In this document: one piece after another, positions 1 through 56,544 of the stretch | Position numbering within the stretch: the first letter of the stretch is position 1 | Layout of the letters: every line of letters starts with the position of its first letter | From: Paramacrobiotus metropolitanus | Lineage: Eukaryota; Tardigrada; Eutardigrada; Parachela; Macrobiotidae | NCBI RefSeq assembly: GCF_019649055.1 | Contig: NW_026570324.1 | Coordinates: 620,001 to 684,000, forward strand | Length of the DNA stretch: 64,000 bases | Direction of reading: 5' to 3' | Program-made: the position numbers and the translations under genes | Notes under the pieces: generated by a model | Told to the model about the DNA's origin: nothing | Databases searched by the model: none | What the model saw: the letters and a program-made list of their open reading frames with translations, nothing else

Positions 1-2654
1 AAGCGCATAAAGCGATCTGACGAATCCATGGATATGCCCAATTTCTTGCCGCCTGATGATGATCCCGTTGAGAATTTGCCAGAGGATGCGCCAGGTGTTA
101 TTTGTGGACTGTCGGACGAACTTTCGGACGTTGCATTTGGACCGGAAGTTAGCTTGGAGTGTGGTTATGAGAGCAACCATGGAATAGGTACAGTACAATC
201 AAACATTTTTACGTTTCGACTTTCGAATCACTCGGTATTTATAGTCCAAAATTATAGGAAGATTCTGTTGAGATTTTCTGGATTGTGGGAATACATACAG
301 TAAATTCATTTGTTTCTGAGACTTCCGATTCTTAGCATCCGGCCAGTTCTAATAGACGCCCGCGTTTTTAGCCAAGCATTGAAACATTGAAATTATGCGG
401 ATATTCGTGCCGCGAGAATGTTCAGAAGTCTCATTTTACAATTCAGGGTTTTGCGATCACTTGGTTGATTATTTAATTGTTCCTGTTTACAGAGGAAGAA
501 AAGTGCGAACTGAAAGCGCTAAGTGACAACTATGGAGCGAGCCAGGACACCGAAGCTGCATTACAACAATGTCCCGTTAATATGTCCGACACATTGATGG
601 AGAGAATGGACAGTTTAAAATCCAAAGCCCATCTTGGATTGCACAAAACCGGAGTGTGTTTGGTCTGCGGCGAACGAGTGGAGAATCTGCCTGACCATCT
701 GGATACGAAGCACACCGATGAAGACATTCAAGCTGTGGATGATGCATGTTTCATCTGTTACCGGAAGTTCAAAAACCGCTCGACAGTGAGCCACCATTTC
801 AAGCTTGTAAGCACACTGGTGCGTCGCATTTTTCCTTGTTTAGTGTTCAGATCGAAGGACCCTTGCAGGTTCACCGCGCAGCGGCGATCGTGCCCGATGC
901 AGCCAGTCAAGCGGCCGCTCTGGAATTTATGTGCCGAACGGGATTTTTAAATTACCGCTGCTCCGAATGCCGAGTCGTGTTTCCCAGTAAGAAGCTTCTG
1001 GATGTGCACAGCTTTGAGCATAATTCAGACCACACTAATCAGCAGCAGCGCCGCTGCTCCGAATGCCCGTTTCTGGCGACTAGTTTCGCCGCTCTCGTCG
1101 ATCACACTTCGCAGCATGCTCTGCCGGCAAAACTCAAACATTATCCGTGCTTACTCTGCGGTGTCGCTGCACGGACCGGGGCACGCATATATATGTACAG
1201 AAACCATCCTGAAGCGATGAAGCTGATCACGGAAGCATGGGCGTTCCAGTGTCCGGAATGCCGGGAGAAATTCGCCGAGAATTTCGATCTGAACTCGCAC
1301 GTGTGGGCGGCTCACAAAGGTTGGCAGTGTGTGTACTGCGGATACCGTGGACCCCGGGGGTGGTTGGCTTTCGACGAACACATCACAACGCATCAGATGG
1401 ACAATTTTGTTTCCTTGCCTGGTTTGTGATAAATTCTTTGAAAAATATGACCAGCTGTGCATTCATGTCCGAGACTGTCACCAAACCGAGTCCCTAACAC
1501 ACGCGGATATGGCGGCAGTGGCCGATTCCGCTTTGGCAGTATCTCCGGCGATGGTGGAACGCGCCGTCGAACATATGCGGGAGACGCAAAAATTCTCCTG
1601 CTACTGCGTTAAATGCAGTCAGTTCTTCGCGAGCTTTGAGCTGCTCGATCTGCACACACTGGGGCACAGTGAGCCGAACGAACTGCAAGACGATCCGCGA
1701 CGTGGTTGTCCCGTCTGCTCGTTCCACGGAGCGAGTTTCGCGGAGTTGGTGCAGCACACGTCAGAGCACCGTCTAGGGAAGAGAGACTCGCGGCCCTGTC
1801 TGATCTGTGGGCAGAATGTCGTCGGCATGCGCGGTCATATCTCCGAAAAACACCCCGATGTGATGCAGCGAATCACGGGGACCTGGAAGCATCAGTGTCC
1901 GGAGTGTGGAGAGCGGTTCAGTCGTCGCGGGAAGCCAGATTTTCACACCAAGGTCAAGCATAAAGGGTTCCAGTGTTGGTGCTGCGCCAAAGTGTTTCAG
2001 AGTTCGTATCTGCTTGGCACCCATGTTGTGGAGCACTGCGTCAACGGCGAATATCCCTGTTCGATGTGTGATAAGATCTTGCCCAGTTATACATTAGTCA
2101 ACGTGCATTATCAGACGTGCCACGATACGACGCGGCGGAAGACGTGCATTGTTTGTCAGACAACGTGTGTGGGGCAAGACAAGCTGGACGAGCATATGGC
2201 GACGTGCCACACGGACGGCACGAAGAAAAGGTCCGTGAGGCGAGCGCCGACAAGCAGCTGTAAATCACGTACGTGTGAGTTTTGTGGGAAGCAGTTCGAA
2301 AAGTATGGAAGCTGGTATTACCATCGGCTTTACGTGCATTTGGGAAAGCCGAAAGAGCGCGTGCACTGCAATCAATGCGACAAGATGTTTGTCGATAAAC
2401 AAGGCTTGGCGATGCACATACGGTGGGTGCATACCGGCGACGCCAGGAAGAAGTATGACAGGGTCCGTGCGGAAAGAAGAGCGGCCGGTCTTCCCGAAAA
2501 TCCCTACCCGAACTATGTCGATCCGCGGAAGCGGACAGCCTTCGCGGATTTCAAGTATAAATGCGAGGAATGTCAGCTGGGTTTTGTGCGGCAGATTTCG
2601 CTGACAAAACACAACGAATCCCGGCATCGGGAGAAGACCCTTCACAACACCTGA
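1..2654 (+). pseudogene. PRDM-type zinc-finger gene, copy A (5'-truncated by window, one frameshift)
   Basis: This is the 3' part of a PRDM-like gene; the knuckle and PR/SET exons lie beyond the left edge. Exons by comparison with copy B are 1-187 (linker exon with the MPNFLPPDD motif), 493-806 (two C2H2 fingers) and 869-2654 (16 fingers). Phases agree with copy B (1, 0). The last exon reads in one frame from 869 to a TGA at 1427-1429. Relative to copy B there is one extra base at about 1400-1415, and the next frame is then open to 2654 with every later finger intact. Finger 5 has also lost its first zinc histidine (Tyr where B has His). The 400 intact codons after the shift suggest a very recent lesion or an assembly error, so this could be a working gene. 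The likely role, by family, is a sequence-specific nuclear DNA-binding protein. Confidence 0.75.
188..492 (+). other. Intron of PRDM copy A
   Basis: The donor GTACAG follows an ATA-G codon split and the acceptor is TTTACAG at 486-492. Copies B and C have an intron at the same place and in the same phase (409 bp and 337 bp). Nothing else was recognised in it. Confidence 0.7.
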
Positions 2655-3774: not shown

Positions 3775-6700
3775 ATGCCTGCTCCGCAGCGCTGCGAACC
3801 CCTGGAGCAGATTTGTAAGATTTTGTTTGCTGGAAGTGCTTTACTGTACAGTCTGTGCTTACAGCTTATTGCATCAGTCTGCATGCACTGACAGGCCTTT
3901 CTCTGTCTACAGAAGCCTCTTGTCACACGGCTCTTGGTAAAGCTGAGCTTTTTACTTTTTTCTGCGATTTCTAAGTCTCTTTGGAACTTATTTTCAGTAT
4001 TACTTTTTGCGTTTGTTAAAGGCTTGGTTATTTCTGCATTTACAAATAACGATCAGCCGATGTGGGATATTTTACTTCGCTGCGTTTTTCAGTTTGCAAG
4101 CAGTGTCAGAAATGGACGAGTCTTCCCTGTTCTTCGCACGCCAAACGCGTCCGAGATGCCCCTGTGTTCCCGTATTCCGTGGCCAGTCTTCCGCCGATTT
4201 TGTATTTGGACGTACCTCAGCATGGCCGGGCTGGTAAGAAAAGTTCACTAGTAACCAAAAAAGTACAATGAAGTTTAATTTAAAATTGTCAAATACTTCG
4301 AGTGCATGATACATTACTTATTTTTTGCAGATTTGATTCTACGAGTACAAACAACCACTAGAGTAGAGTAGTTGCTTGCTGCACGATATATTTGAATCCA
4401 GCTAAAAGAGATAATGCCATTGTCTAAGTAGTAATTTTTTTTTCAGGTAAAGCCGTTTTCGCCAAAGAAGCGATTCCGCCTCTGACAGTTTTTGGACCAT
4501 TAATCAGTAAATTCACTACAACGAGACCAGCGAACGTTGCATTCGCCTGCGGGAGTGCGACAATGAAAGAACTGCATTATTTCCAGCTGGAATCGGATCA
4601 GACGACCAACTGGATGAAATTTGTCAGATTTGCACAGACTGCGAAGGAACAAAATTTAGCTGCATACGAAGTACGGTAATTACTCAAATAATTTAGTCGA
4701 AATTGTCCGCAGTCATCAGGAGGGATTTTCGAACGCAGATGGGAAATTCAAACTTCGATATATTAATTTAGCAACATAACTTTAAAAAAGCTTTTTCTGG
4801 CTTCAACTGATAATTTTAACTTGCTGATTTTTGCGCCTCAAATGCTTGATGTTTACTGTTCGTTATAGTGTACTTGTATACAAAATCATCCTACAAAATA
4901 CTTCAGATGTTAATTGAAACTGTTGTCAGCTCTTTGGAAGCCCACGGTAATAGTTAACAAATGAGAGAAATTCCACAGAATTGATTTTGTAGGTACAAGA
5001 AAGGTCTCCGCTGCTGTCGGGTCCGGATGCTGTTTTCCCTACGCAAAAACACGTGATATTCGTTACGACGAGAATGATTCGGCCTGGGGAAGAACTGAAG
5101 GTGGCCTATTCCCTGATTTATTCCCAAGCGATCGGCTGTCCCGTTTCCCCGAAGTCTCAAGTTTCTCAACAGACCGGTAAAAAAACAACGCCAGCTAGTC
5201 ACTCTGATGGACAGGATCATCCAGATTCTTCATCCGTTTTCCTGCTTCTCACGGGACCACCCCTCCTACCAAGTGTAGCACAGAGCGCGGCAGATGACAC
5301 AGTTAACACACTGCATCAGGATCCGGTCCGGAACGTTAAGAAACGACATTTGCCACAGAATCACAGTAGACCGCGGTCCCCATCGAATGAAAACGTTGTG
5401 TCCCTCACAGATAAGGAAAACCATACCAGCCAGATTTCCATAATCTCAGGTACGCAGGGTGTCTGACGAGTGTAGTATTATGAACATTGTAATGATTCAT
5501 CGGATGTGAGTGCACTTTATTCACCGTAGACGCGATGACGGGGAAACGCAGAAAGCTATCGGAGGAATCTATGGACATGCCCAATTTCTTGCCGCCTGAT
5601 GAAGTCACCGGAAATTTGCTGGAGGATTTAGGATGTGCTAACGCGTGCGGTGTAAGCGCTCTCGCAACGTCGGATGACCTAGTTGAACCGCAGTTTGTCG
5701 CAGTACTCGCCGCTGCCGATGTTGGGGAATTCCATGCCGCTGGGAACGAAAACATAGGTAAATTTTAAAATTTTTGAAATCTATTTCAAAATCGGAAGAA
5801 AACGCTATGAGCCTGATATTGGTTCATGGTTCACTTTCGACTTAATGGCCATGCGTCTTTTACAGCAAAGTTTCAAGAAGATCGGGCAACAACCAGACTT
5901 TCGGTGCACAGCAATGCATTTAAACTTTTCGCCCATTTTAGATCGCCATATCTCGGCAACCGGTTGTTTGCGCGCGCAAAAAGTTTTCAGAACAATGCGT
6001 ACAAATCACTTAGTTTAGAATGACAAGTATTACGAAAACGTGATTCAGAGAGTGCGCGAAAGCGAAAGTTTTAGTGTATGTATCCCATTTTCACACTATG
6101 TACCGGCACATTTTCTTAAGACAGATCAACAGATTTGAATAGGAATTTGAATATTCCACTTTTCAGAGGAGGAAATGCCGGAGTTGGAGGTGCCAGTTTT
6201 CTCGGAAGACAGTGGCGGATCCAGCCAGGCGATGGAAATTGCGTTACAAAATAGTCCCGTCGAAGCATTAGATGCATTGATAGAGAAAATGAACAGTCTG
6301 AAGTCGAGAACCCATCTCGGACTGCGCAAAACCGGAATGTGTTTGGTCTGCGGGGCACGAGTGGCGGATCTGCCCGGCCATCTGGACAAGATGCATACCG
6401 ATGAAAACATCCAAGCTGTGGATGATGCGTGTTTCATCTGTCACAAGAAGTTCAAGAATCGCTTGGCGTTGGAGAATCATTTCAAGAAGGTGAGCACATG
6501 AAATATTCTTCATTTCTTGTTATTCCAGTATTTATGATGGAAACTGTTAACAGGTTCATCGCGCAAAGGCGGCCGTGCCCGACGCAGCCAGCCAAGCAAC
6601 GGCTCTGGAATTTATGTGCCGAACGGGATATTTAAACTACCGCTGCTCCGAATGCCGGGCCGTGTTTCCAAATCGAAAACTTCTGGATCTGCATGGCTTT

Positions 6701-8350
6701 AAGCATAGTCCAGACCATCTGATGGATCAGCAACAACGCCACTGCTCAGAATGCCCGTATATAGCCACGGGAGTTGTCGATCTCGTGGAGCACATTGGGC
6801 AGCATGCTTTCTCGCGCATGACAACACGGCATTGGTGCCTGCTGTGCGGTGTCACAACCCGCACCACAACACGCAAACACATGTTTCAAAAGCATCCGGA
6901 AGCCATGAAGACGATCATGGAAGCATGGCACTACCAGTGCCCGGAGTGCCGTGAAAAGTTCGCCGACAATTCCGATCTCAGCGCCCATGTGTGGAGGGCT
7001 CACAAAGGCTGGCAGTGTGTCTACTGCGGATATCATGAGCTCCGGGGGTGGTCGGATTTCCACGAGCACGCCTCAGCGCACATGATGGACCAGTCATTTC
7101 CGTGCCTGGTTTGTAAGGAATCGTTTCCGGAGTATCATCGCCTGTGCATCCATATCCGGGATTGTCACGAAACCGAACCCCTCCAACATTCGGATGTGGT
7201 GGCGGTATCCGATTCCGCGGCTTCGGCTGCTAATCCCGCGATAGTCGAACGCGCCATCGAGCACATGCGTACGACGCAAAAGTTCTCCTGCTACTGCGAT
7301 AAATGTGATCGGCATTTCGCCAGCTTCGAACTCCTCGATCTGCACACACTGGGGCACAGTGAGCCGAACGAACCGCAAGACGATCCGCGTCGGAATTGTC
7401 CCGTCTGCCCGTTCCACGGGGCGAGTTTTGCGGAATTGGTGCATCATACATCAGAGCACCGTCTCGGAAAGAGAGACTCGCGGCCCTGTCTGATCTGTGG
7501 GCAGAATGTCGTCGGCATGCGCGGTCACATCTCCGAAAAGCACCCCGATGTGTTGCAGCGAATTACGGAGACCTGGCAGTATCAGTGTCCGGAGTGTGGA
7601 GAGCGGTTCCCGAGGCGCGGGCCGCTAACGTTCCACACCAAGGTCAAACATACGGGCTTGCAGTGCCGGTACTGCGCCAGGATGTTTTCTGCTCCTTCGG
7701 TCCTTAGCTTCCATGTCGTGGAGCACAGTGTGAACGGGGAATATCCGTGTCCAGTGTGCGAGAAGATCCTGCCCACGTATACACTACTCAACGTGCATTA
7801 TCAGGCGTGCCACGATGCGACGCGGCTCAAGACGTGCAGTGTGTGTCAGACCACCTGTTTTGGACAGGACAAGTTGGATGAGCATATGGAGTCGTGCCAC
7901 AGTAAAACCGGCGAAAGGGATACAAATACAGCGGCAAGCAACGCCACACCACGTGTCTGTGAATTTTGTGGAGAGCACTTCAAAACGTATCAAGTGCTAT
8001 ACAGTCACCGGCTTATCGCGCATCTGGGGAAGGAGGAGAAAAAGCCACCCAGCGTGTGTTTGCCGTGCGACCAGTGTGGCAAGAGTTTTGACAATAAGGA
8101 CCGTTTGTGTCGTCATGTGCGGTGGGTGCATATGGGGCAAGCCAAGGAGACGTACGCCCGGAAGCTTGCGGAACGGAAAGCGGCCGGTGTACCCAGCAAG
8201 CCCACGCCGCCACCACGGATTTCCATGGATTTGGCGGATTTCAAGTATAAGTGCGAGGAATGCCAGGTGGCCTTTATGCGGCAGTTTGCGCTGACGAAAC
8301 ACAACGAGTCCCGGCATCCGGAGACGCTTCAGCACCTGAGCTGCAGTTAA
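3775..8350 (+). CDS. PRDM-type PR/SET-domain C2H2 zinc-finger protein, copy B (intact)
   Basis: Seven exons join in phase: 3775-3814, 4093-4233, 4447-4670, 4993-5449, 5530-5757, 6167-6489 and 6554-8350. They total 3210 nt, or 1069 residues. Residues 15-29 form a zinc knuckle (C-x2-C-x7-C-x2-H), with the same spacing as the PRDM9 knuckle. A PR/SET domain follows at about 45-185, with FGPLIS, NWMKFVRFA, KEQNLAAYE and IRPGEELKVAYSLIYSQAIG; both tyrosines of the PRDM active-site strand are present. A basic, disordered linker (to about 363) contains KRRKLSEES and MPNFLPPDE. About 18 C2H2 fingers follow, two in exon 6 and 16 in exon 7. PRDM proteins are nuclear DNA binders, some of them histone H3 methyltransferases; methylation here is inferred only. 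The closest PR-domain pattern is PRDM9/PRDM4. The fingers are diverged from one another, unlike the near-identical PRDM9 minisatellite. A CAG just before the ATG leaves room for an extra 5' exon. Confidence 0.85.
6554..8350 (+). repeat. Internal six-finger duplication within exon 7 of copy B
   Basis: At protein level, fingers around residues 500-700 and 717-905 align as two blocks offset by about 217 residues. The order of finger types is the same: a CxxC-LLDLH finger, a SF.ELV.H finger, a CLxCG finger ending in KHPE/KHPD, a CPEC.E.F finger, an aromatic C.YC finger, and a C..C finger ending in H followed by CH. The leader ALEFM...YRC parallels AIEHM...FSCYC. The same arrangement is present in copies A and C, so the duplication predates the tandem copies. 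Confidence 0.7.
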
Positions 8351-9084: not shown

Positions 9085-12000
9085 ATGCCTGCTTCGCAGC
9101 GCTGTGAACCCTTGAAGCAAATTTGTAAGTTTTTGCACCTAATGGTATTTATACATATTAATTGTGTACGCTTCTACTGTTAACTGCTTGATTACTTTCT
9201 GCAGTTTTTTATAATGTACAGTCAGCTGTTTGTAACGATCGGATATTTAGTTTATTCGCTTTGCAGTTTGCGAGCAGTGTCAGAAATGGACAGTTCTTCC
9301 CTGTTTTTCGCATGCCAAACGCGTGCGAGATGCCCCTGTGTTCCCATATTCCGTGGCCAGTCTTCCGCAGATTTTGTATTTGGATGTACCTCATCATGGC
9401 CAGGCTGGTGAGAATAACTGGATAACGGCAGACAAACTCAATCTTCTGCACCAGTTATTAACATTTTGGTAGAACATTTTTAAGTAATAACGTGAATTTT
9501 AGAAACTTTTCGCCAATGTGATGCATGCAGATATGTATTTCAAAAATCGAAATCGCACAATAAAAATTTTTATGGGTGTTAAAATTAAGGATGATTTTGT
9601 TTGTGTGGAAAATGCAAATGACTGCTTCTGCTTACATCGACATTCTTCGCTTTTGTAGTACAAATGTCTTCATTGCTTTATATATTTAAAAGCTGAAAAC
9701 TTCCGGCAGGCGAGATTAAAAAATTATTTTTTTTTCAGACAAAGCCGTTTTCGCTAAAGAAGCTATCCCGCCTCTGACAGTTTTCGGGCCATTAATCAGC
9801 GTACTCAGCACAACAAAACCAGCGGAAGTTGCTTTCGCTTGCGGAAATGCAACGAAGAAAGAACTGCATTATTTCCAGCTGGAATCCGATGAGACCACCA
9901 ACTGGATGAAATTTGTTAGATTTGCAGAATCTCCGGAGGAGCAAAATTTAGCTGCATACGAAGTACAGTAAATAACTGCTAATTACAACCGGTTTGTTTA
10001 GTAGAAGAACAAAATCAATACTTCGAAGTACTCATACAAAAGTTATTAGCACATAGTAGTCATCAGAAACAGCTGGTGGTAATTTTGTACCATTACGTTG
10101 AGCAAATGTTTTAACAATTTTGATTTATGATTATTACTCGTTAATTTAAATTCTTAATTTCTCACTTACGATTAATTAATTTACCAATTACGTTACGTTA
10201 ATAATGTAATGAATTAATGGATCTGATTAAAACTAGGTTTAGAAAACAAAAATAAAAATATTCAGTAGAATGTTTTCACTGATGTTCGTGTTTATGAGAG
10301 CATTCTATGTACTGTTAATTGAAATTTTTTCTTCTCTTCGAAAGCATAAGCGAACAGTAAAAAGAAATTCAAGGGAATATGCTTTGTAGATGCATGAAGC
10401 GTCTCCCTTGGTGTCAGGCGCGGATGCTGTTTCCCCTACGCAGACACACGTGATATTCATTACGATGAAGGCCATCCAGCCGGGCGATGAACTGAAGGTG
10501 GCCTACTCGCTGATTTATTCGCAGGCTATCGGTTGTCCGGCTTCCCCGAAGGCTCAACCGACCGGCGGTAACCTAGCGCCAGCTGACCATGTTGGTGGAC
10601 ATGATAAGCCGGATTCTTCGCCCATTTTTTTATTATACTTGTGGGACCAGCCCTTCAGCACAGTGTAGTGCCGAACACGGGGACGAATTTAATTGACCAA
10701 CCGCCACCGGATGCGGTGCGGAAGGGTAGGAAACGACGGTTGAGACAGACTGATAGTGGACCGTGGTCTATATCGATTCCGCACGGTGTGTGCCTCACAG
10801 AAAAGGAAAACCATCCCAGTCAAAGTATCCACGATCTCAGGTACGCAGTTCGACTGTTCATGATGTATACTGTGACCGCCTAAGATGGCGGCGCAGAATG
10901 AAAATGTCTGTTTTAATGGATTTTCTGCTGTAGCTTGAAATACAGCAGAAAAAATATGCCTGTCCATGATAGCATTCACGAAGGGTTTTGTTACGAATTT
11001 TCGTTTTGTTTTTAATGGCTACGCGACAGTTCGGCGCGGGACATTTGGTTTTACAGACATTTCGTCTAAGGACAACTCGTTTTTATGGCAAATAGTCATA
11101 TGACTGTTCGTTGCCAAAAAGCAGTTGGTAATTTTTCGACTCCCCAAAAGTCGCGCGAGCAAATGACATATATGAAACGGCTGCAAGAACGAGTTGTCCC
11201 AAAACAGATTAGCCGCTGCGACGGAAAACATGTGGCAAAATGTCCCACGACGAAATGTCCCGCGAGCACCTTGGTGTCACGGTTTTTATCTCATTCAAGT
11301 ACAGTGACACACTTACTACTAAAGGTTAATGCCTGAAATTATAGTGATCTAGAATTATATATTGTTTATGTATCTCTTTTATTTTATGGAAGGAATCTAT
11401 GATTTAGAGACACCTTAAGTTTCCCCCATATTGTAGATTTTTAGGAGATAGGTAGGTATCGGTAGCTACCTGTGACGCGTGTGTTCTGAGTAGAACGGTC
11501 CATCCATACGACTTTGTATGTAAAGGCAATTTGTTCAACACAGATGCGACAATGAGAAAGCGCAAAAAGCTAGCCGACGAATCCATGGTTATGCCCAATT
11601 TTTTGCCGCCTGACGAAGCACCCGTTATGAATTTGCCTGACGTAGTGGCAGACGTTGTGTATGGATCAGCCTCGGTCGAGGTGTAGGACGTTTCGGTTCA
11701 TCCGGAAATGGATGTATTTGGAGTGGATTTCGACTTGGAGGTCAACGAGGGCATTGGTAAAACCACAAGTTTTTCCATTGTGCATATCTCCTTTTTTTGT
11801 ACTAGGCGTTCAGTGTAGGAGAATATTTCGGACTGCAGAAATAAGTACATTGTCTTTTGGCCTCACGATGTTGCTTGTTGCTTACCGTATCCAAATAATT
11901 TGAACAATCGTGCACTATCGAACCAGTTTGTTTAGAAACCAATAAGCGCCGTGCTTTGCAAATTGTACGTAAGTTTACGGAAATTTGTTAGCATTCACAT

Positions 12001-14276
12001 TTTCAATTACGTGGATATTCAAGTTGCGAGAATGTTTTAAAGTCCCACTTTTGGATTTGGTTCGTTTGGTGATTGAATTATTCTTTCTTGCAGATTTACA
12101 GACGTCGGATCCCGAACTGACGATTCCGCCGGATGACAGCTGCGGAGCGAGCCAGGCGACCGAAGCTGTGTTACAAAATGTTCCCGTTAGTACGCCCGAT
12201 GCACTGATGGAGAAATTGAACGGTCTGAAATCCAAGGCCCATCTCGCGTCGCGCAAAAGCGGAGTGTGTTTAGTGTGCGGCGAACGAGTGGAGAATCTGC
12301 CCGACCATCTGGACGCGATGCACACCGAAGAGGACATTCAAGCTGTGGGTGATGCGTGTTTCATCTGTCACAAGAAGTTCAAGAATCGGGCGTCGATGAG
12401 CTCTCATTTCAATATTGTAAGCACATAAGATCACTGATTTTCTGTTCCTAGTTTTAGGAATATTTGCAGGTTCATCGCGAAGCAGTAGCCGTGCCTGATG
12501 AAGCCCGTCAAGCGGCCGCTCTGGAGTTTATGCGTCAAACGGGTTTGTTCAGTTATCGCTGCGGCAAATGCCGAACTGTGTTTCCGAATAAGACCCTCCT
12601 GGATGTGCACAGCTTCCTGCATAATCCTCTTCCTGACCATCAGCCCCAGCGGAACTGCTCCGAATGTCCGTTCGTCGCGACGAGCTTTGCCGAACTGGTC
12701 AAGCACACCTCGCAGCACGTATTGCCGCCGAAAACGCGACAGGCATGTCTGCTGTGCGGCGTCACCGTCCGTACCGCGCCACGCCGACACATGAAAAAGC
12801 ACCACCCGGAAGCCTTGCAATTGGTTAATGAAGCATGGAAGTTCCAGTGTCCCGAGTGTCGCAAGAAATTCGCAACGAATTAGAATCTCAGCTCGCATGT
12901 GTGGAAACTGCACGACGGCTGGCAGTGCGTGTACTGCGGACACCGGGAGCCCGGTGGGTGGTCGGCGTTCCATAAGCACGTCAGAGCGCATAAGTTGCAC
13001 AAATCGTTCCCGTGCGTGGTCTGTATAAAACCTTTTAAGAAATACCATCGGCTGTGCATCCATATCCGGGATTGTCACAAAAACGAACCCCTTCCACACG
13101 CGGATATGGTGTCGGTGGCCGAATCCGCGGCACTGGCAGCTTCTCCCGATATTTTGGAACGCGCCATCGCGCATATGCGGGAAACACAGATTTTCCTGCT
13201 ACTGCCACAGATGTAACCGGCATTTTTCCAGTTTTGAGCTGCTCGATTTACACACGCTGGGGCACAGTGAGTCAAACGAACTGCAAGACGATCCGCGTCG
13301 GGATTGTCCCGCCTGCTCGTTCCACGCGGCGAGTTTCGCGGAGTTGGTGCAGCACACGTTAGCGCACTTTTTAGGTAAAAGAGACTGGCGGCCGTGTTTA
13401 ATCTGCGGGATGAATGTCACCGGCATGCGCGATCATATCCAGGAGAAGCATCGCGATGTGATACAGCGGATCACGGCGTCCTGGAAGTACCAGTGTCCGG
13501 AGTGTGGAGACCGGTTCCACAGTCACGGAACGCTGGACTTCCACACCAAAATCAAACATAAGCGCTTCCAATGCTGGTACTGCGCCAAGCTGTTCCAGAC
13601 GTCCAACCTGCTGGGCTGTCATGTCGTGGAGCACAGCATCAACGGGGAGTACCCCTGTCCTGCGTGTGACAAGATCCTACCGAGTTATCCACAGATCAAC
13701 GTCCATTATCAGACGTCCCATGATGCGACGCGGTTGAAGACGTGCAGTGTGTGTCAGACAACGTGTTGTGGAGAAGACAAGCTGGACGAGCATATGGCAA
13801 CCTGCCACAACAGTGCGGATGGTACGAAGAAAAGAGCCGTGAGGCGTGCCACGACAAGCAACGGTAAATCACGTGTGTGTGAGTTTTGTGGGAAGCATTT
13901 TGAAAAGTATCCCAGCTGGTATTACCATCGGCTCTACGTGCATCTGGGAAAGAGGCCGAAAAAGTCAAGTAGTACAGTGCGCGTACAGTGCGAACAGTGC
14001 GGCAAGATGTTCACCAGTCAAGGAAACTTGACGAAGCACTTGGACAGGGTGCATAGCGACGATGGGAAAGAGAAGGATGCGCGGGAGCGGGCGAAACGAA
14101 AAGCGGCCGGTCTGCCCGGCAATGGAGCCCATCCGGGCTATGTCGATCCGCGAAAGCGGACAGCTTTTGCGGATTTCGAAATGCGGGGAATGCCAACTGG
14201 GATTTGTGCGGCAGATTGCGCTGACGAAACACAACGAAGCCCGGCATCCGCAAAAGGTCATCCATCACCCAGTTAA
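9085..14276 (+). pseudogene. PRDM-type zinc-finger gene, copy C (multiply disrupted)
   Basis: The exon pattern matches copy B: 9085-9124, 9267-9407, 9739-9962, 10390-10840, 11544-11756, 12094-12416 and 12470-14276. The first three exons have the same lengths as in copy B (40, 141, 224 nt) and keep the knuckle and PR-domain motifs. Lesions: in exon 4 the frame shifts near 10630 and hits TAG at 10666-10668, with a compensating indel near 10815; there is an in-frame TAG at 11684-11686 in exon 5; TAG at 12881-12883 replaces a finger codon; a 2-bp deletion lies near 13190; and about 5 bp are missing near 14170, shifting the last finger. Intron 4 carries a foldback insertion. Splice sites and most finger sequence survive, so loss is fairly recent. 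A short PR-domain-only product from the first exons is possible but unproven. Confidence 0.8.
11035..11264. mobile_element. Foldback/MITE-like inverted-repeat insertion in intron 4 of copy C
   Basis: The left arm begins CGCGGGACATTTGG and continues to GGACAACTCGTTTTTATGGC. The right arm reads GAACGAGTTGTCCC and ends AAATGTCCCGCG. The centre is a palindrome around AGTCATATGACT, flanked by GGCAA and TTGCC. The arms are imperfect inverses about 100 bp long. The intron here is 703 bp against 80 bp in copy B, consistent with insertion after duplication. No coding capacity; the transposon superfamily is not identified. Confidence 0.6.
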
Positions 14277-15733: not shown

Positions 15734-18343
15734 TTATTTAACGGACCCCATTTCGTTGATCACATTGAGGCGCTTTTCGTTGATTTCGGCAACCGTCCAA
15801 GTGTTTCCACTGCTGATAGGCACAAAATACTGTGCCCATAGTGTATCCCCACGGTAGATCTCCACGGTGGCCTGCGAGTTGGCTAGATTCCATTCCGGCC
15901 ATCGGGTCTCCGGTTTTGACCGTAGTGCATCGGTCTCCTGGACGAATATCCGATAGGTACCGGACAGTTGCTTCTTTATAAGAACGCTACCAAATATCCG
16001 GTCCATGTAATCGTAGACCATGAGTTTGTCCGCGCTGACAGTGACATTTGCGTTCACTTCGGCACGTTGGATGGGGTTGTTCTGCAGCGGCCCCTTAACC
16101 ATCAGTTTAACATCGAACGGGCCGTAATTGCCGTTAGCTATCAGTCCGGTCGCTCGCAGGACGATTCGGACGTCTCCCTTGGCAAACTGTGGTGTTAGTG
16201 CCCAGTCACGCATGTTATCCCATCCTCCAGGTACCGCTTGCACAGTGAACGGAGGACCCGCGAATTTGTCATCCGGCTTCGATCCTGTATACACAGCAAC
16301 AGCTGTGTAGGGTCCTCCCGGGAGCGGCACTGACCACGTGCCGTTTATCGTCGTAGTATTCGCCGCAATTGGACCCGTGACGTTATTTATTCCAGCTCGC
16401 AGTTGGACTTGAACTCCTGACATTGAATAGGCGCCGCTAGTGTTGACCAGCCGTATGGCTCCCATTGCTTTGCCAATGCCCTTCAATTCGCTGCGAGTAA
16501 ACATCAGCGGTTCCATGAAGACCTCCCTGCCTAAGCTGAGCACCTGGGTGAAGTTGCGCAGTGTGATGGGAGCATATGGATATCCTGCGAATCCAGAGGT
16601 TTCGAAAAGGATGTTGTAGTCCTTGGTGCGTGGTAGTCGAAGCGTAAATTCTCCCGAGAGAGGAGTGGTTGTTACGTTAGTGGAATTAAAAGGTTTGTCG
16701 TTAAGGTCGCGAAGTGTCACCACGATAACTGCATCGGAAAAGGCATACAGATTGTCGGCTCGGCGAGCCTGCCAGTGGACGGTGACCATGTCGACCCCGG
16801 GGCGGTCGAACGGGGATTCTATACAAAGCACACGTCTGAACGATCAGTGCAATAGCTAATATAAAGATAATAGATGATTATACCAAGGAAATCACGGACA
16901 CCACCAATAATATCGAGAAAATATCGTAGTGCAGTGGCTCTAATTCTGGGATAAGGTGAGTGCAGCAGCATCATGCACGCTTTGCCGTACAGGATGAAAT
17001 TACAGTAGCGCAGTGTACTTAAGCCTGCCGATTGGCTCAAGCCCATGTTTTCACTTTCTGCCGCTGTTGTGAGACGGGCTCATGTTTACTTAATTCATAA
17101 TATTGTGTTAAAAGGTCAAGGTTCTGTTACCAGAAGCAGAAGTACCGGTTAAAAGGTAATTTCACATACCGGGTTGGATTCTGTTGTGGCAGCCCGCCGA
17201 TGGCGTTGTCGCGTTCGCAACACTTTTACCGGTGTTCGCGGTGGCTGTATGGATCGTTTTCGTCCCAGCGGGCATATTAGGAGAAAATGACACGAACAAA
17301 TGCGACGCGAAACGGGCGCTGTCCGACTGCAGCGCCGTCTTGGTTTCGTTGCAGGCCGCCGGTGTTTGACAGCGGATGCACAACGACAGCGTGGGCGGCA
17401 ATGGCGTACTGGTAAATGGCTGCCATGAAATCGAACTGTTGCTGAAGCTGGGAGCAGCACTGTTTGGCGCGTACTCTATTCGAGTCCATTGGAAGGGAAT
17501 TAGAGAAACGACGGTCTGTGGATCTTTTGTGCGCTGTATGACGGCGTCTTGGATAGCCGACACGTAATCCTTATCCCACAACTTGATTTCGACAAAGACA
17601 CAGTTGGTTCCGCTTGCCGGGTCGAGGAAGATTTCCGTCGCATCCGGGAGGAGAGTGGCGACTGGTGCGTAATAGAAGGTTGGATGCGGTGCCGGAGAAG
17701 TCTTGTTGAAAATCGCAATCTGGAGGCTGTTGTAGGGAACGGTAAAGCTCGGTGCGCTGAGGTCAGCGTCATTAAATGGGACTGGAAAAACAGCAAAGTA
17801 CGAAATTGCTATAACCGGACTTTCAAATAAGGAAACCACTACTTCTAGCGATCATGGTACAGTAACAGTATGGTCCGTATCTAACGCGTACGTCGCAAAC
17901 ATTGCATCATAATATTATTATCTTGTATTTGCGCGAAAGTGCATTTAATTGCAAATACGGTGGCTATAAAAATCCAGGGTGTGTTAAAAAAATAAATGAA
18001 TTAGAAAAGGGTGTCTATAATTGACGGGAAGCGGAAAGGGGGGTGGCTATAAAAAGCGGAGGTGTTAGGGGTGGCTACAATGTCACTCTTTAAATAAACC
18101 TTATACGATAATAATCCTAATTATTATTATGATATGCAATATTTAAGGTGCAGCCGCCTATTTCATCTTTTTGTCCTTTAAGCGCGACTGGAGCAGCCGA
18201 TTTCGTCACTACAGATATGTACCCGGTATTACCTACAGCCATAATAACAATAATAGAATAAAACTGTAAAATGTGCACGTACCACTATAAGCCATGCCAA
18301 AAGAAAGACAAAAGAGCAGTATTCGGTATCCGAATTGGTGCAT
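15734..18343 (-). CDS. Secreted protein with C-terminal YfaP-like beta-sandwich domain, copy 1
   Basis: Three exons on the minus strand: 18343-18283, 17781-17170 and 16818-15734. Both junctions are phase 1 and the total is 1758 nt, or 585 residues. Exon 1 codes for a signal peptide (MHQFGYRILLFCLSFGMAYS). Exon 2 (about residues 21-224) is rich in Ser, Thr and Pro with several cysteines. Exon 3 looks like carboxypeptidase-regulatory-like beta repeats (ITGEF/SGEFTLRLP, PGGPYTAVAVYTG) followed by a domain with GDVRIVLRA, SGTYRIFVQE, ATVEIYRGD and NTWTVAEI. That last pattern resembles the YfaP/DUF2135-type fold found in extracellular proteins. Many NxT/S sequons (NSTN, NVTT, NFTQ, NGTW) support secretion. 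The function is unknown; adhesion or matrix roles are guesses. A tandem paralogue lies at 21989-24104. Confidence 0.75.
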
Positions 18344-19257: not shown

Positions 19258-19955
19258 ATAGTCATGTCGTGGAGCACAGCGTCAATTGAGGATACAAATG
19301 TATCCTTGTTCGGCGTGTGATATGATCCTGCCAAATTATCCGCTGGTCAACGTGCATTAGCAGACGTGCCATGATGCGACGCGGTTGCAGACGTGCGGTG
19401 TTTGTCAGACAACGGAATGTGTTTGGATGCAGTTCGAAAAGCATCCAAACTTGTATTACCATCGACTCTACGTGCAGTTGGGAAAGAAGCCGAAAAGGTC
19501 AAAATGTCACAGTGTGTGTACAGTGCGACCAGTGCGGCAAGATGAGAGTGAAGCAACCTTGACGCTAAAGATGAGAGTTATGATAATCTTCGGCCGGATG
19601 GTGTATCACAGCTGACTTGGAGAAACGGATTACAACTGGCTTGGGAAGTAATATGTGTGGACACGGTTACCTTGTCTAACGGCATCAGCAACAGTATCAA
19701 AGCCGGGAAGCGGCTAGAAAAGCGGAAAAAGAGAAGTGCCGGAAATACGAGTATCTGGCAACCGAGTATTAGTTTGTTGCTCTAGCTTTTGAGACTTTCG
19801 GCCGGTCTCTCAGCCGGGCTATGACGATCCGCGAAAGCGGATAACTTTTGAGGATTTTAAGTATAAGTGCGAGGAATGCCAACTGGGATTTGTGCGGCCG
19901 ATTGCGCTGACGAAACACAACGAGCCTCAGCATCCGGTAAAAGGTCGTTCATCAA
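19258..19955 (+). pseudogene. PRDM zinc-finger exon fragment, copy D (relic)
   Basis: It starts abruptly with TCATGTCGTGGAGCACAGC, which matches codons in the middle of exon 7 of copies A-C (13620 in C). It follows the exon to the last finger (GTATAAGTGCGAGGAATGCC at about 19861) and on into GACGAAACACAACGAGCC. In-frame stops come at once (CAATTGAGG), about 130 bp are missing after the CAGACAACG triplet region, and the middle section around 19560-19790 is scrambled. There is no upstream exon. The sharp 5' edge coincides with the end of the repeated gene-copy-1 flank, so it marks a duplication joint. Confidence 0.75.
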
Positions 19956-21988: not shown

Positions 21989-24104
21989 TTATGTACCGGT
22001 AACTTTGCTCATTTCGTTGATCACAGTGAGGCGCGGTCCGCTGATTTCGGCAACCGTCCACGTATTTCCAGTAATAATCGGCACAAAATACTGCGCCCAC
22101 AGTGTATCGCCACGGTAGATCTCCACGGTGGCCTGCGAGTTGGCCAGATTCCACTGCGGCCATCGGGTCTCCGGTTTTGCCCTTAGCGCATCGGTTTCCT
22201 GGACGAGTATACGATAGACACCGTCCAGTTGCTTGCGGATCAGGACGCTACCAAATATCCGGTCCGTGTAATCGTGGACCATTAGTTTATCGGCACTGGT
22301 AGTGGCATTTTCGCGCACCTCCGCACGTTGAGTGGGATTGTTCTGCAGCGGACCGGACACCAGCAATTTAACATCGGCCTGGTCGAAATAGCCGTTAGCT
22401 ACCATTCCAGTCGCTCGCAGGACGATTCGGATGTCCCCCTTCGCAAACTGTGGCGTTATAGCCCAGTCACGCAGGTTATCCCACCCTCCAGGTACCGCTT
22501 GCACAGTGAACGGCGGACCCGTGAACTTGTCCTCCGGCTTTGATCCTGTATACACAGCAACAGCTGTGTAGGGTCCTCCGGGGAGCGCCAGTGACCACGT
22601 GCCATTTGTCGTTGTTGTGTTCGACGCAATCGGACCCGTGACATTATTTATTCCAGCTCGCAGCTGCACTTGAATTCCTGACACTGAATAAGCACCGCTA
22701 GTATTGACCAGGCGTATGGCTCCTGCTGCGTTGCCAATCCCCTTCAAATTACTCCGAATGAACATCAGTGGTTCCATGAAGACTTCCCTGCCTAAGTTGA
22801 GCACCTGGGTGAAGTTGCGCAGTGTGATTGGAAAATATGAAAATCCTGCGTATCCAGAGGTTTCGAAAAGGATATTGTAGTCTTTGGTGCGTGGTAATCG
22901 AAGCGTGAATTCCCCCGTGAGAGGAGTGGTTGTTACGTTGGTGTGATTGAATGGTCGGTCGTTAAGATCGCGCAGTGTCACCACTATTTCGGCATCCGAA
23001 AAAGCCCACAGGTTGTCGGCGCGGCGAGCCTGCCAGTGGACGGTGACCATTTCGGCCCCGGGGCGCTCGAACGGGGAATCTGTACAAAAGCACACTGAAG
23101 AATTAAAAGAGCAAAAGCTATTATAAAGATCAGAGATGATTGATGATACATAAAATTATGATTGAAAAGGTCAAGGTTCTATTACCGGAAGCAAAAGTAC
23201 CAGTTAAAATGTAATTTCGCGTTCCGGGTTGCGAGTGTTTGTTATGGCAAACCGATGGCGCTGTGGTGCTTGCAACACTTTTACCGGTGTTCGCGGTGGC
23301 TGTATGGATTGTTTTCGTCCCAGCGGGCATATTAGGAGAAAATGACACGAACAAATGCGACGCGAAACGGGCGCTGTCCGACTGAACCGTCGTCTTAGTT
23401 TCATTGCAGGTCGCCGGTGTTTGACAGCGGATGCACAACGACAGCGTGGGCGGCAATGGCGTACTGGTAAACGGCTGCCATGAAATCGAACTGTTGCTGA
23501 AGCTGGGAGCGGCACTGTTCGGCGAGTACTCTATACGAGTCCATTGGAAGGGGATTAGAGAAACGACGGTCTGTGGATCCTTGGTGCGCTTTATGACCGA
23601 GTCTTGAACAGCCGACACGTAGTCTTCATCCCACAACTTTATTTCGACAAAGACACAGTTAGTGCCGCTTTCCGCGTCCAGTAGGATTTTCGTCGCATCC
23701 GGGAGGAGAGTGGTGGCTGGTGCGTAATAGAACCTTGGATGTGGTGCCGGTGTAGTCCTATTGAAAATCGCAATCTGGAGGTTGTCGTAGGGAGCGGAAA
23801 ACTCGGTACGCTCAGGTCAACGTCAGGTGGGGCTGGAATAACAACAAGTAAGTACGAAATTGCTTTAACTTCCAAATAAACCTCATACGTTACATAATAA
23901 TAATATTATAATATGCAATACTTAAAAGTGCAGTCGAATATTGTTGCCGTTTTAAGCGCAAACTGAAGCAGCTGATTTCGTCACGAAGTATTAATTGTAC
24001 TATAGTGTGTAGTAATAATAAACTTGTAAAAATATACACGTACCACAACAAGCCATGCCAAAGGAAAGGCAAAACAGCAGTAGTCGGTATTCGAATTGGT
24101 GCAT
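21989..24104 (-). pseudogene. Secreted protein with YfaP-like domain, copy 2 (1-bp frameshift)
   Basis: Paralogue of the gene at 15734-18343. Exons: 24104-24044 (signal peptide, LLLFCLSFGMACC), 23832-23186 and 23079-21989. Near 23797 exon 2 lacks one base compared with copy 1 (TTTTCCGCTCCC against TTTACCGTTCCC), so the frame from the signal peptide stops at about 23639. Past that point a long frame is intact, and exon 3 is open to its stop. The exon-2 donor used by copy 1 (G|GTATG) is destroyed here (GGAACGCG); a phase-1 GTAATAG farther downstream (exon end 23186) restores the correct phase into exon 3. One lesion in an otherwise clean gene could be a recent mutation or an assembly error. The C-terminal domain is as in copy 1. 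Confidence 0.65.
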
Positions 24105-30100: not shown

Positions 30101-31592
30101 ATTAATTAACGAATTTTTTTCCTATCGAATTTTTGCACACATGTGCCGTGAAATTTTTCCCTCAACCGGCACTGCTGAACGGAGGCGAGGAAGTCGCCAG
30201 CATCCGCCACTACAAGCGCATTAACGACGCTCCGGCACGGCTGTCCACTTGAGCCCGAAAGTGTACATACACACAGCATACGGTATGCCAGTGTGTGGAG
30301 ATGGTATATTGGTTTGCCAACCAGCCGGTCCCGGGTTAATAATCTCTTCCCCTTCAGCCACAATGTACACAATGTATTTATAATCAATTTCCGCTCACGT
30401 CGCTGCAGCCAGTGTATATATCGAGGTCCCCTCCGCTTGATCACGATCGTGTGCGTTAGGTTGGCCAACATTGCCGCTCTTTCGCGTTTCTATATATGTA
30501 CGGCAATATCTATTCGATAATCAACATACACACTCACTTCTCCTCGACAGCTCAATATTCCCCCATCCGCCAATATCTCCGTAATCCAGGAAATTAATCC
30601 CAATCATCACATCAACAGCTCGCCGGCGCTCGCTCGACCCCGGCACACCTGCCATTCAGATTATGCATATGCTGTATATGCTGCGATATTCTACCGCGCC
30701 GCGTTCTAACGCGGACCGGTGACGCTATTGTTACCCGGCTCAATGCAATGACAAGGTCGTCGATTATTTATGCAACGTGTGATTTCTCAGCGCGCTGACT
30801 TTACGGTCTCTCCTAACCAAAATTTATTTCGACAATTTCCTTCGTTAACCTAAATTAATGGAAGATAAATATTGTGAATTTATTTTTAATTTTCTTCTAT
30901 TAGTTGATGGAAAAGTTCTGATTTTATTTTCAATGTGCTTCATTCGTAAGTGTGTGTAAATGCTGTATTTTCCTTTTCAATGCCATAAGAATCAGTACCA
31001 CAAATTTAATTTGTAATATAAAACTGTAAGCCAAATAATTGTTGAAATTAAACGGTACGGCATAGAGCATTTACATTTGGTAATCTGAATGAAAATCCAG
31101 TGACCCGGAATTCGCTATAATTCCATAATTTAATCATATAATTTCGATGAATATTTTATTGGCGTTTCTGCCGTTATTTATCCATCTCCGCCTTATATGC
31201 CGCGGAGATATGTATAGTAAATCAACGGCATATTCACTACAGAGAAACAACACCCTAGATTAATAAATTCCCGGTTTTGCATTGTGCATTTATTTTAATT
31301 TTTAACTGTATAAGAAAGGTATTACTGTACACATGAAGTGTATATGGGTCCCTATATAAATTTTCCCTTGCAGCATGGCGAGACGCCACTACCGCGTGAC
31401 CTTAATCAACTAAACAAGCCCAATTACACGCCGCCTTACCTTCCTCTACCACACCCGCCCGCGCTGGCCAGCGCGTCTCCACCCGATGCGTTGCGGTGCC
31501 GCCGCCGCCCGGGGGGCTGCTGCAGCGGCGGCGCTTAACGTTCACGGCGCTCCTCATCGTCGTCGACGCGCAGCGGAAGCGGAAATGATCGT
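24105..31592. other. Long gene-free region upstream of the receptor gene
   Basis: I see no supportable gene. 24430-24620 is the second copy of the duplicated flank. Two longer open frames (25520-25957 plus; 25983-26573 minus) have no recognisable domain and composition typical of non-coding DNA here. The AAAGGTCA motif occurs at about 25114 and 25961. The CGTAGTGCAGTGGC repeat motif is at 29835. Much of 26500-31300 is AT-rich. Distal exons or enhancers of the receptor gene could hide here. Confidence 0.5.
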
Positions 31593-31733
31593 ATGGCGGA
31601 AATGCGGCAATTCCCTGTGCAGCCGCTGTACACGTTGTTGTTGTCGTCGGTGTGGCGCGGGCCCATTAGCGGTGATGGGCCGCGGGAGACCCATCACCCA
31701 CCACCGCCTGCCCGCCCACAGGGGCCCATTACC

Positions 31734-34700
31734 ATGAGGGCGCTTATCCTCACCGGCATTTTCCTCATGATCAGCCTGCAGCGGGCGGGATTGGTCGACG
31801 CCCGCGGGCGGCAGCCGGCACCGGGGTCCGTCCACCGCTCCAAGACACACCACTTCCCGGTGGCGGATGGACTGAATCAGGGGCATCATTCCAGGGAAGC
31901 CGGAAGGAACGGTAAGGATGATCTTTTTTTTCTCGATTAATCAGTCATGCGAGGAATTTTGGGCGTTTTACAGCACTTCCCTCGTTCCACGAATTCCTGT
32001 TTTCCTTAGCCGGCTTTGCTCTCTTGCTTAAAAAATATCTTAACTACACTTATCCGGCAAAAACTACTGATTTATTAAATCAGTGCTTAAAGAATTAAGA
32101 TTAATTTAATTTCTTTTTTACAAAATTTTTATCTATGGTTTTGTATTAATAATTTTTTGTTTAATTAAATTAAATTCATTTTTAGCAAAATCGAGTAGTA
32201 TACCCATTAAGACAAATGCTTATATTAAAATATTTTGGTGAGTGCGCTTCGAACAAATTCGTTGTGATAATTTTTGGTAACGTAAATCTCCCGTTTTACT
32301 CAAGAAAACCATTCCCATTACTCGCATCCCCGTCCCAACTGCCACCCGGAAGCGTTCCTGCGCAGTCTGCGCTCGCGGTTCCCCCGCAACGCCAACCTGG
32401 AGGCGGTACGGCTGCCGACCGGTGAGTTTGTGAACATCAGCTGGCCGGTGAAGCGGGTGGCCAACATTGAGGGCTCCGTCGTCCTGGGTGGTCTGATGAT
32501 GGTGCACGAGCGCGAAGAGAAGGCCACGTGCGGCAAGATCATGCGGCAGGGCGGCGTGCAGGCCATGGAGGCCATGCTCTACACCATCGACTACGTCAAC
32601 ACCCACCTCACCGGCATCCACGCCAAGCACTCCCAGAATTTCCTGCCCAACGTCACGCTGGGCGCTTACATTCTGGATGACTGCGATAAGGACACGTACG
32701 GGCTGGAGATGGCCGTGGATTTTATTAAAGGTCAGTTTTCCATTGATAATTCTTAATTTTTGTATATGGTTTGCAATTTTTTAATTTTATCCGAAATTTT
32801 ATTCTGCATAAGAATTATATTACGCATGACCTTTTGCGTAAACCATTTAACATATTCAAAAATAACAAAAATAAAAATTTAATTATTTAATTTATTTATT
32901 ATTTATTTTTTAGTTTTTAATTTCAGATTTATCTATTAATTTGTATTTAAATTTAAATTTACATTACGGGATATGCCAAAGGTCATGCTTATTTTTGCCG
33001 GCTTTTAAGCTTCAAAACCCGGTAATTTTGCAGTAACACGCGACGAAGGTCACCTTTTTTAAGCTACCTTAAGTCGGCGTATTAAAGGTCACCGCTGCAA
33101 TGTTATTCAGTTTTCTTGTTTTGAGCGTTAATGCGCGGCGTCATCGCATTATAACGCCGGATCAAGCTTAACACCGCCGCCGGGCAAAGCCGGAATCATT
33201 GCTTGTCTTAGTAATAAGCGGTAGAGATTAAAAGGTCATGTACACACGACGGTAATTAGCGGCGCTGGGCGCGCTACCATTAATGCGCGGCTGCGTCAAA
33301 CGGAAGTCGGATCAGGGCGTTGCACGTTTTTCAGTATAGAACCCGGATAACCGGCATCGCATGACCCATTGGTGTGGCCTCATTTACGACCGCGTCCCCC
33401 CTCCAGCACGGCGGCCACTTGTGCGGCAGCGAGTCAATATTATGACATTGCCTTCATTTCCTTAACGATTATTACCCCATCAACAGCTCGTTTGGGGTCC
33501 GCCTAAAAACACAGACATTCGTGCTCATCCATAAGTTGTGCGCGCGAGTGTGTGTGTTGGGCAACTTTATTGATTCTACAAATGGGATCGGTTATAGCTG
33601 CATCATGATATGCGATATATTGACGGCCAAGAAATTCGATACGCTGCATCTCGTGCAGCGAAAAATTCCGATAAGCGCGATTAGCATTAGAGAAAAATTC
33701 AATAACGAAGGTTGGCTTTTAATAAATACGCAAACAAATATTATTACATTAAAAAAATTATAATCAATTTTTAAAAATACCTTGGCAATGAAGGAATAAC
33801 TGTACGATATCGGTTTATATAGTTTGCTCAAAATAGTGTCCACAAAATGAAAAAAATACTCACTAATCGTTACAGTAATAAGAAAACTGGAAATCTAAAA
33901 GTATACCAGTTTTTCCGATTTTTTTGGCGCGCGCTTTAAAAATTTTCAGTGAAAATAGAGTAATTGCGTTGGCCAGAAAAAATAAATTAGGCCTGTATTA
34001 TCCTCGTTTCCGGTTGGGGAAAAAAGGCATCGCTTGAAGAGATCATGCTCTTTTAACAGCGCCGGCACATTTTTTCCGCCCGCCGGCGCACTAATGAAGT
34101 TTCTTATTTTGCCGGGCCCGGCATTTTGTCCGCCCACTCAGGAGTTTCTGCTGTGTAAGCCGACTGCAAGAGCGCGAGAGGGGAAATAGAATAAATAGAA
34201 TTAGGGAAAAGGGTCCGTGAAATATAATTTGATTGGGATTTGATGCTGACCCACGAGGTGAAGCACATTGGATGCCGGTCGGCGTATATATGTGCGTCTA
34301 TATACGCAGCAATCCGGCAGAGAAGCTTTTAGTCAATACGCACGTCACTGCACACAGTGCACAGGAAAATGCCGGGCTTGCGCGATCAATGGGCAGCATC
34401 GCTAATGTCGGGCCCCGGCCGAAGGAAATGCCATTATGGATGCAGTGTTTCACGCGCCGATGATCTGACGATTACGAGTCTCTAAGTGGATAGAACGAGC
34501 CAGCGCCAGCGGCCTCCCAGGCATATAGGCCGACCATGGGACCGGCAGCTAGCGTAGACGTTGCCGATTAACGACCACAGCGAAATTTTAATTTTATATT
34601 CGTTTATCATTATTTAAACGTATTTTTTCAAGCTAATATTTCTAAAATAAATTAAATTTAAATTTAAAAAAACGTAGATGCAAATTTAAAATATACAATA

Positions 34701-47462: not shown

Positions 47463-47993
47463 AAAATGCTTATATATACGAAGAACATCCGTTGTGCTTT
47501 TGCAAACGCCGGTCGCCGGTGTGTAATGGATCGGTTGACATGGATCTCTTTTTTTAAGCTGTGCAATGGTATTAGCAATCATCCTGTAGAGTGTATAATG
47601 AAATTGATCTGTTTCCGGTGTTAAGGGATAGTAACAGAATATACTGTACCGTCGACATGACACAAAAAATTAGCACAATGCAACAATGATTGCAAAATGC
47701 GACAGTGCGGCTGATATAAACGTTAACACGTATTAACAATATAATTGTATATGACTAAAAATACTAATTATTAATCTGACAAATAAATACTAGTGCTACA
47801 AGTAAAAGAAGTGTGTATCAATACGACAATTACATAGAAAATAATTTATGCGGCAGTAGTTTTTATCATTGCTGGAAGGATCGATCGCATAAAGGTCACA
47901 CACAATTATAGGCAATTAAATGACACAGAGCTTTAATTATAACCGCGACAGCTAGCGCGCAGATGCGTTGATCATCGGGTAAAGGTCAACCGT
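47463..47993. other. Convergent intergenic region with receptor polyadenylation signal
   Basis: It separates the receptor stop codon from the stop codon of the minus-strand membrane-protein gene. AATAAA at 47782-47787 is a plausible receptor poly(A) signal. AAAGGTCA motifs lie at 47891 and 47981. Confidence 0.45.
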
Positions 47994-56466: not shown

Positions 56467-56544
56467 GGTGAGTGCCTGTGGAATCATTAAATTAATAAAA
56501 GCAAGATATTATGTGGTAAAAATAGTACTGTGATATGTTGTGTG

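Follow-up and report, generated by a model that had tools for sequence, protein, structure and literature searches.

A clustered family of PR/SET zinc-finger genes with PRDM10 affinity in the tardigrade Paramacrobiotus metropolitanus

The large lineage-specific zinc-finger families known so far use KRAB, FiNZ or ZAD modules, and the KRAB zinc-finger (KRAB-ZNF) genes are thought to descend from a PRDM scaffold; a 2016 survey is said to have covered Prdm genes across animals. Here we describe a family of genes encoding a zinc knuckle, a PR/SET domain and an array of C2H2 fingers in the tardigrade Paramacrobiotus metropolitanus (assembly of 169,799,020 bases in 533 contigs), starting from one member, copy B, in a window of 64,000 nucleotides (C104:620001-684000). 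The closest single genes are PRDM10, which in vertebrates has ten fingers and a glutamine-rich (Q-rich) C-terminus by the account in PMC7368010, and PRDM9, described in PMC11703093 with KRAB, SSXRD and the three catalytic tyrosines Y276, Y341 and Y357, its finger array being a minisatellite. Human has 17-19 PRDM genes (17 in PMC2082429), and the counts in that paper are 7 putative genes for sea urchin, 3 for arthropods and 2 for nematodes.

Copy B and the extent of its family

Copy B spans 3775-8350 (+) of the window and consists of seven exons, which joined in frame, as the initial annotation had read from the letters, and gave 1,069 residues and a single terminal stop. All six introns were GT-AG. 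When seven pieces of these lengths were drawn at random 20,000 times from window positions 24,500-64,000, none of the sets gave an open frame. The exons are (window coordinates):

3775..3814 (+), exon 1: the first 13 residues, start codon included; open frame, GT donor
4093..4233 (+), exon 2: zinc knuckle CKQCQKWTSLPCSSH, C-x2-C-x7-C-x2-H
4447..4670 (+), exon 3: first part of PR/SET (NWMKFVRFA, EQNLAAY); PF21549 at 3.6e-18, best stretch residues 57-138
4993..5449 (+), exon 4: remaining PR (HVIFVTTR, ELKVAYS) and linker; SET PF00856 match at residues 61-174
5530..5757 (+), exon 5: linker; open frame, GT-AG
6167..6489 (+), exon 6: finger 1 and the larger part of finger 2, by regular expression
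6554..8350 (+), exon 7: end of finger 2, fingers 3-18 and the stop; zf-C2H2 PF00096 at 4.9e-19

The PR/SET identity proposed in the initial annotation was borne out by hidden Markov model profiles, both PRDM2_PR (PF21549, 3.6e-18) and SET (PF00856, 3.5e-6) lying above the Pfam cut-offs, and the predicted knuckle was found in exon 2. A regular-expression count over the last two exons returned the 18 fingers that had been claimed, and Pfam zf-C2H2 marked 7 stretches at E <= 1 in the last exon. With the array C-terminal to the PR domain, copy B follows the PRDM plan; unlike vertebrate PRDM10, it ends 10 residues beyond finger 18 with no Q-rich tail. We conclude that copy B is an intact family member, and the impression of an invertebrate-like genome was likewise upheld.

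The local amplification noted at first proved real and to extend far beyond the neighbouring copies A to E. A genome protein search with the knuckle and PR gave 130 matches, and PF21549 gave 88, of which 85 exceeded the cut-off. Of the 85 PR loci read, 82 belonged to the family; the other three best matched PRDM1 (L077, 3.2e-29), PRDM14 (L078, 1.1e-15) and PRDM10 (L079, 3.7e-19). Outside these 85, PR was matched weakly at C17:786009 and C104:597080 and the knuckle at C17:817024, and C43 had two matches below threshold. The genome thus has at least 82 PR loci of this family, spread over ten contigs and mostly clustered: 51 on C17 (at 0.70-1.51 Mb), 10 on C73, 9 on C12, 5 on C104, 2 on C448 and five singles. 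In a sample of the family searched at E <= 0.01, PF21549 was matched by 46 of 46 PR domains and SET by 41 of 46, and NCBIfam gave 0 matches for three proteins.

An uninterrupted PR frame was present at 74 of the 82 loci (60 single-exon, 14 two-exon). Among the other eight, L014, L024, L030, L038, L059 and L073 were frame-broken, truncated or ended early, and the DNA fetched for L019 and L023 showed no second PR exon. A strict knuckle lay upstream of the PR on the same strand at 69/82 loci against 1/82 in the opposite-strand control, so that chance pairing of knuckle and PR is no concern; eight of the remaining 13 had x8 spacing and five had no knuckle in the stretch read. Downstream on the same strand, a finger array was found at 39 of the 41 loci for which downstream DNA was read (12/13, L001 and L002, 10/10 with 0/10 on the opposite strand, 12/13, and copies A, B and C), a non-random set chosen by cluster, in which nine loci (L084-L092) were fetched for known array matches and others lay near such matches. 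Ten further loci had 5-13 fingers per array, as against 18 in copy B. These results identify a gene family much larger than the copies in the window, probably lineage-specific and duplicated largely in tandem.

Affinity and active site of the PR domain

A profile built from 46 single-exon family PR domains and ranked against solved PR structures matched PRDM10 best (3.7e-28), followed by PRDM4 (2.4e-24), PRDM1 (1.5e-22), PRDM11 (1.1e-20) and PRDM9 (1.3e-18). A PR tree of 89 sequences and 105 columns, rooted on PRDM1, was built with FastTree, giving Shimodaira-Hasegawa (SH) support, and with IQ-TREE -fast, giving the SH-like approximate likelihood ratio test (SH-aLRT); the overlapping frame-broken pieces L014 and L024 and the too short L038 were left out, and PRDM15 was not in the set. 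In this tree 79 family members, human PRDM10 and L079 formed a clade (SH 0.929, SH-aLRT 93), next to which stood PRDM4 (0.909; 88.5), with PRDM9, PRDM11, PRDM12 and PRDM14 outside. The signatures CNWM..VR.A and ELKVWYS..YA are also shared between PRDM10 and the family, the chief difference being that PRDM10 is one gene and the family 82 loci. L079 (on C154) is the genome's own PRDM10-like locus and is followed by ordinary C2H2 fingers, three of them in one frame read; the genome therefore still has a PRDM10-like gene alongside the expanded family. The 3.5 kb fetched upstream of L079 showed no knuckle, which does not prove that the locus lacks one. These relationships argue that the family probably arose by duplication from a PRDM10-type gene, an origin that we hold jointly with the mode of working proposed below.

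The initial annotation had compared copy B with PRDM9 and PRDM4. The PRDM plan stands and PRDM4 is next after PRDM10 in the tree, but the kinship with PRDM9 does not hold. A PRDM9-like recombination factor, whose array would bind DNA and whose PR domain would methylate H3K4/H3K36 and so place meiotic breaks, does have points in its favour: the family shares with PRDM9 the succession of knuckle, PR/SET and long C2H2 array as well as the motifs NWM..V and EQNL, and P. metropolitanus has two sexes, as stated in PMC11191345. However, the knuckle of copy B aligns with those of both PRDM9 and PRDM11, and its C-x2-C-x7-C-x2-H spacing does not single out PRDM9, because PRDM11 has the same. The array of copy B is also no minisatellite: its 18 fingers had a mean identity of 0.30 and a maximum of 0.48 in 56 equal-length pairs, and a finger-length tandem repeat was sought in it and not found. 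Pfam marked neither KRAB nor SSXRD in residues 1-287 of copy B; a genome search for the two gave 0 matches, which does not prove their absence because control genomes also gave none. Finally, there are some eighty copies instead of one.

The active-site residues point the same way. With numbering from PRDM9 chain 4c1q, 80 family members were aligned, two loci with overlapping frame-broken fragments being left out. 1) The Y276 position held tyrosine in 0/80 (L 53, F 15, M 9, V 3), 2) the Y341 position in 0/80 (F 70, L 7, gap 3), 3) the Y357 position in 60/80 (L 13, F 3, gap 4), and 4) the N320 position had R instead in 74/80. At each of the six positions compared, L079 agreed with the majority of the family (L A R F Y Y), and in a column that we take to be methyltransferase activity the 2013 review PMC4009873 enters "no" for PRDM10. 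Both tyrosines of the active-site strand had been reported as retained in copy B; the residues matching PRDM9 Y357 and Y361 are indeed there, but L and F occupy the Y276 and Y341 positions. The suggested methyltransferase activity has to be qualified to the same degree: PRDM9-like methylation of H3K4/H3K36 is unlikely because neither Y276 nor Y341 (three gapped) is kept in any of the 80, although the retention of Y357 in 60 leaves some room for it. The PR module is, judging from these residues, probably mostly non-catalytic and partner-binding. PRDM9 orthology was rejected on the tree, the profile ranking and the active-site residues, and a PRDM9-like role in recombination appears very improbable.

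Constraint, contact residues and a proposed role

The PR domains are constrained: the median ratio of nonsynonymous to synonymous substitution rates (dN/dS) was 0.14-0.26 in seven subclades of 4-11 members each. The lowest subclade PR dS, 0.07, belonged to the adjacent tandem copies L046 and L047 (C17:1333-1341 kb), and duplication is therefore recent or continuing. In the fingers, the contact positions -1, 2, 3 and 6 were compared with neighbouring helix positions of the same fingers. Identity was 0.39 at contact and 0.58 at helix positions in set X (copy B and five relatives; permutation p 0.0006), 0.57 and 0.72 in set Y (5 sequences; permutation p 0.009), and 0.33 and 0.59 in set Zc (7 sequences). 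Contact variation exceeded that of the neighbouring helix in four of the five array sets, and the first three zinc-ligand columns were identical in sets X, Y, Zc and Zb. In the five sets pooled, 28 of the 36 fingers varied more at contact positions, 7 varied less and 1 was tied (Wilcoxon p 0.006), a value to be read with caution because the fingers of an array do not count as independent. Contact positions are thus diversified relative to the scaffold.

The same data bear on the idea that the loci are mostly a graveyard of decaying duplicates. It has in its favour the breakage of copies A and C next to copy B (see below), the eight PR loci that are interrupted, truncated or without a second PR exon in the DNA read, and the two loci read downstream without an array. 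It is contradicted by the constraint on the PR domain, by the 74 uninterrupted PR frames and by the invariant zinc ligands in the sets measured; on the PR constraint we rejected a pseudogene reading for most copies, and as an account of the family as a whole decay seems scarcely credible.

By analogy, it is likely that the family works as vertebrate KRAB-ZNF, fish FiNZ-ZNF or insect ZAD-ZNF genes do, given the combination of a constant PR module with a DNA specificity that the fingers would make particular to each copy. Each member would bind its own DNA target through its finger array, the constant knuckle-PR module would engage a common partner, by binding rather than methylation, and duplication with turnover of contact residues would yield new specificities. 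The members would be expressed, bind DNA and regulate, most likely repress, targets that are repeated or change fast, for example transposons. Like KRAB-ZNF and FiNZ-ZNF genes, those described here form large clusters, have a constant N-terminal module and more variable DNA contacts, and were recently duplicated, but the effector is a PR/SET with a knuckle. With insect ZAD-ZNF genes they share lineage-specific amplification, a single N-terminal domain joined to fingers and an ecdysozoan host, the ZAD being another domain than PR/SET.

Several observations, besides the non-independence of fingers, weigh against this proposal. In three subclades the closest pairs had dN/dS above the medians (0.035/0.071, 0.067/0.090 and 0.096/0.179), and recent constraint may therefore be weaker. 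Set Zb (5 sequences, 2 fingers, 8 contact columns) showed no contact excess (0.80/0.79), and the excess in set Y1 was weak (permutation p 0.064, within fingers). The ratio of nonsynonymous to synonymous differences (pN/pS) at contacts reached at most 0.98, in one set, and was never above 1, with synonymous sites near saturation, so that the result speaks for diversification relative to the scaffold only and not for positive selection. The first PR of L006 and L030 had no downstream array. A family-only clade was recovered with weak support (0.589 SH; 34.8 SH-aLRT), and PRDM10 could therefore lie inside or beside the family. A strict regular expression found a TGEKP-type linker in none of 458 fingers (PR-less and broken arrays counted in), unlike in KRAB-ZNF genes.

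Targets among host genes have to be considered as well. Amplification of a PRDM10/PRDM4-like gene by drift and subfunctionalisation, giving ordinary developmental factors without a link to genomic parasites, would agree with the finding that PRDM10 activates a reporter through its fingers together with either its PR domain or its Q-rich tail (PMC7368010), which also means that repression is not a given; in addition, fly ZAD-ZNF genes apparently lack specific transposon targeting in the account of PMC10547256. Copy number, recent tandem duplication and contact turnover are more typical of conflict-driven families, though still compatible with host targets, and we regard a purely developmental family as a serious possibility but not the expected one. 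On the side of transposons, PMC10547256 describes a correlation of ZNF copy number with retroelement copy number across animals and the derepression of transposons in zebrafish when FiNZ-ZNF genes are blocked. For a family working in the KRAB-ZNF, FiNZ-ZNF or ZAD-ZNF manner, transposon control would be the most attractive target, with host-gene regulation nearly as likely.

Neighbouring genes, variants of the family and meaning

Copies A and C and the relics D and E, which the initial annotation had placed beside copy B, were all recovered (window coordinates):

1..2654 (+), copy A: 3' portion, including a finger array whose frame is broken
9085..14276 (+), copy C: seven exons all recognisable, PR pieces in frame
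19258..19950 (+), approximate ends: relic array fragments D/E, repeat families D5 and D9, from sequence

The PR exons of copy A are L014, just upstream of the window, where the PR frame is broken too. Copy C has stops in exons 4, 5 and 7 and is therefore pseudogene-like.

Other features of the window were also noticed. Two gene copies resembling each other, roughly 6 kb apart, occupy 15734-17851 and 22010-23830 (-), with repeat families D6 and D8; a frame of one has a weak, sub-cut-off match to the carboxypeptidase-regulatory-like PF13620, and a frame of the other has none. A gene for a class C receptor, likely one resembling the metabotropic glutamate receptors, lies at about 31500-47500 (+), with Pfam 7tm_3 at 44048-44386 (5.3e-15) and a sub-threshold ligand-binding-region match at 32286-32753. 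The open frames 56491-57318 (+) and 63229-63792 (-) resemble by eye the C-terminal parts of non-LTR (long terminal repeat) reverse transcriptases and had no Pfam match.

Two kinds of variants were seen elsewhere in the genome, namely branches with a two-unit domain between PR and fingers, and arrays of the family finger plan with no PR match:

L010:2697-4220 and 5264-6865 (+), and L012:1779-3125 (+): two-unit domain with NPFQYP/NPFQYS motifs
L094, C70:706800-714300: cluster of PR-less arrays
L095, C49:1016500-1019500: gene with a PR-less array

A genome search with the two-unit domain gave 22 matches, all on C17, C73 and C47 and within PR-ZNF regions, and in two proteins the stretch with NPFQYP had no significant Pfam match. 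The C70 and C49 arrays have the family-like opening TG...C-x2-C...LLDLH or LLELH, and the C49 array also has a C-terminal finger ending in HPE; it is possible, from these resemblances, that the C70 cluster and the C49 gene are PR-less descendants. No prior account of the family was found among the papers listed, judged by titles and abstract openings, mostly outside subscription journals, and an earlier report is possible; the main text of PMC10547256 contains neither "tardigrad" nor "PRDM".

The family is an unusual variant of the lineage-specific zinc-finger families, neither PRDM9 nor categorically new. Its pattern recalls the vertebrate zinc-finger families that silence genomic parasites, on a different domain. 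More tentatively, and with some doubt, it might represent a tardigrade genome-defence repertoire of zinc fingers derived from a PRDM10-type gene, independent of the PRDM9-derived KRAB-ZNF genes of vertebrates and including, as in vertebrates, descendants that kept the array without the PR domain (those on C70 and C49), and also the branches that gained the two-unit domain. A PR/SET-knuckle family this large would be a further independent case of such expansion, on the PRDM scaffold, and would make testable 1) the suitability of PR domains as repressor modules, 2) the loss of PR/SET as a repeatable path, and 3) the use of about eighty DNA-binding regulators in a small desiccation-tolerant animal.

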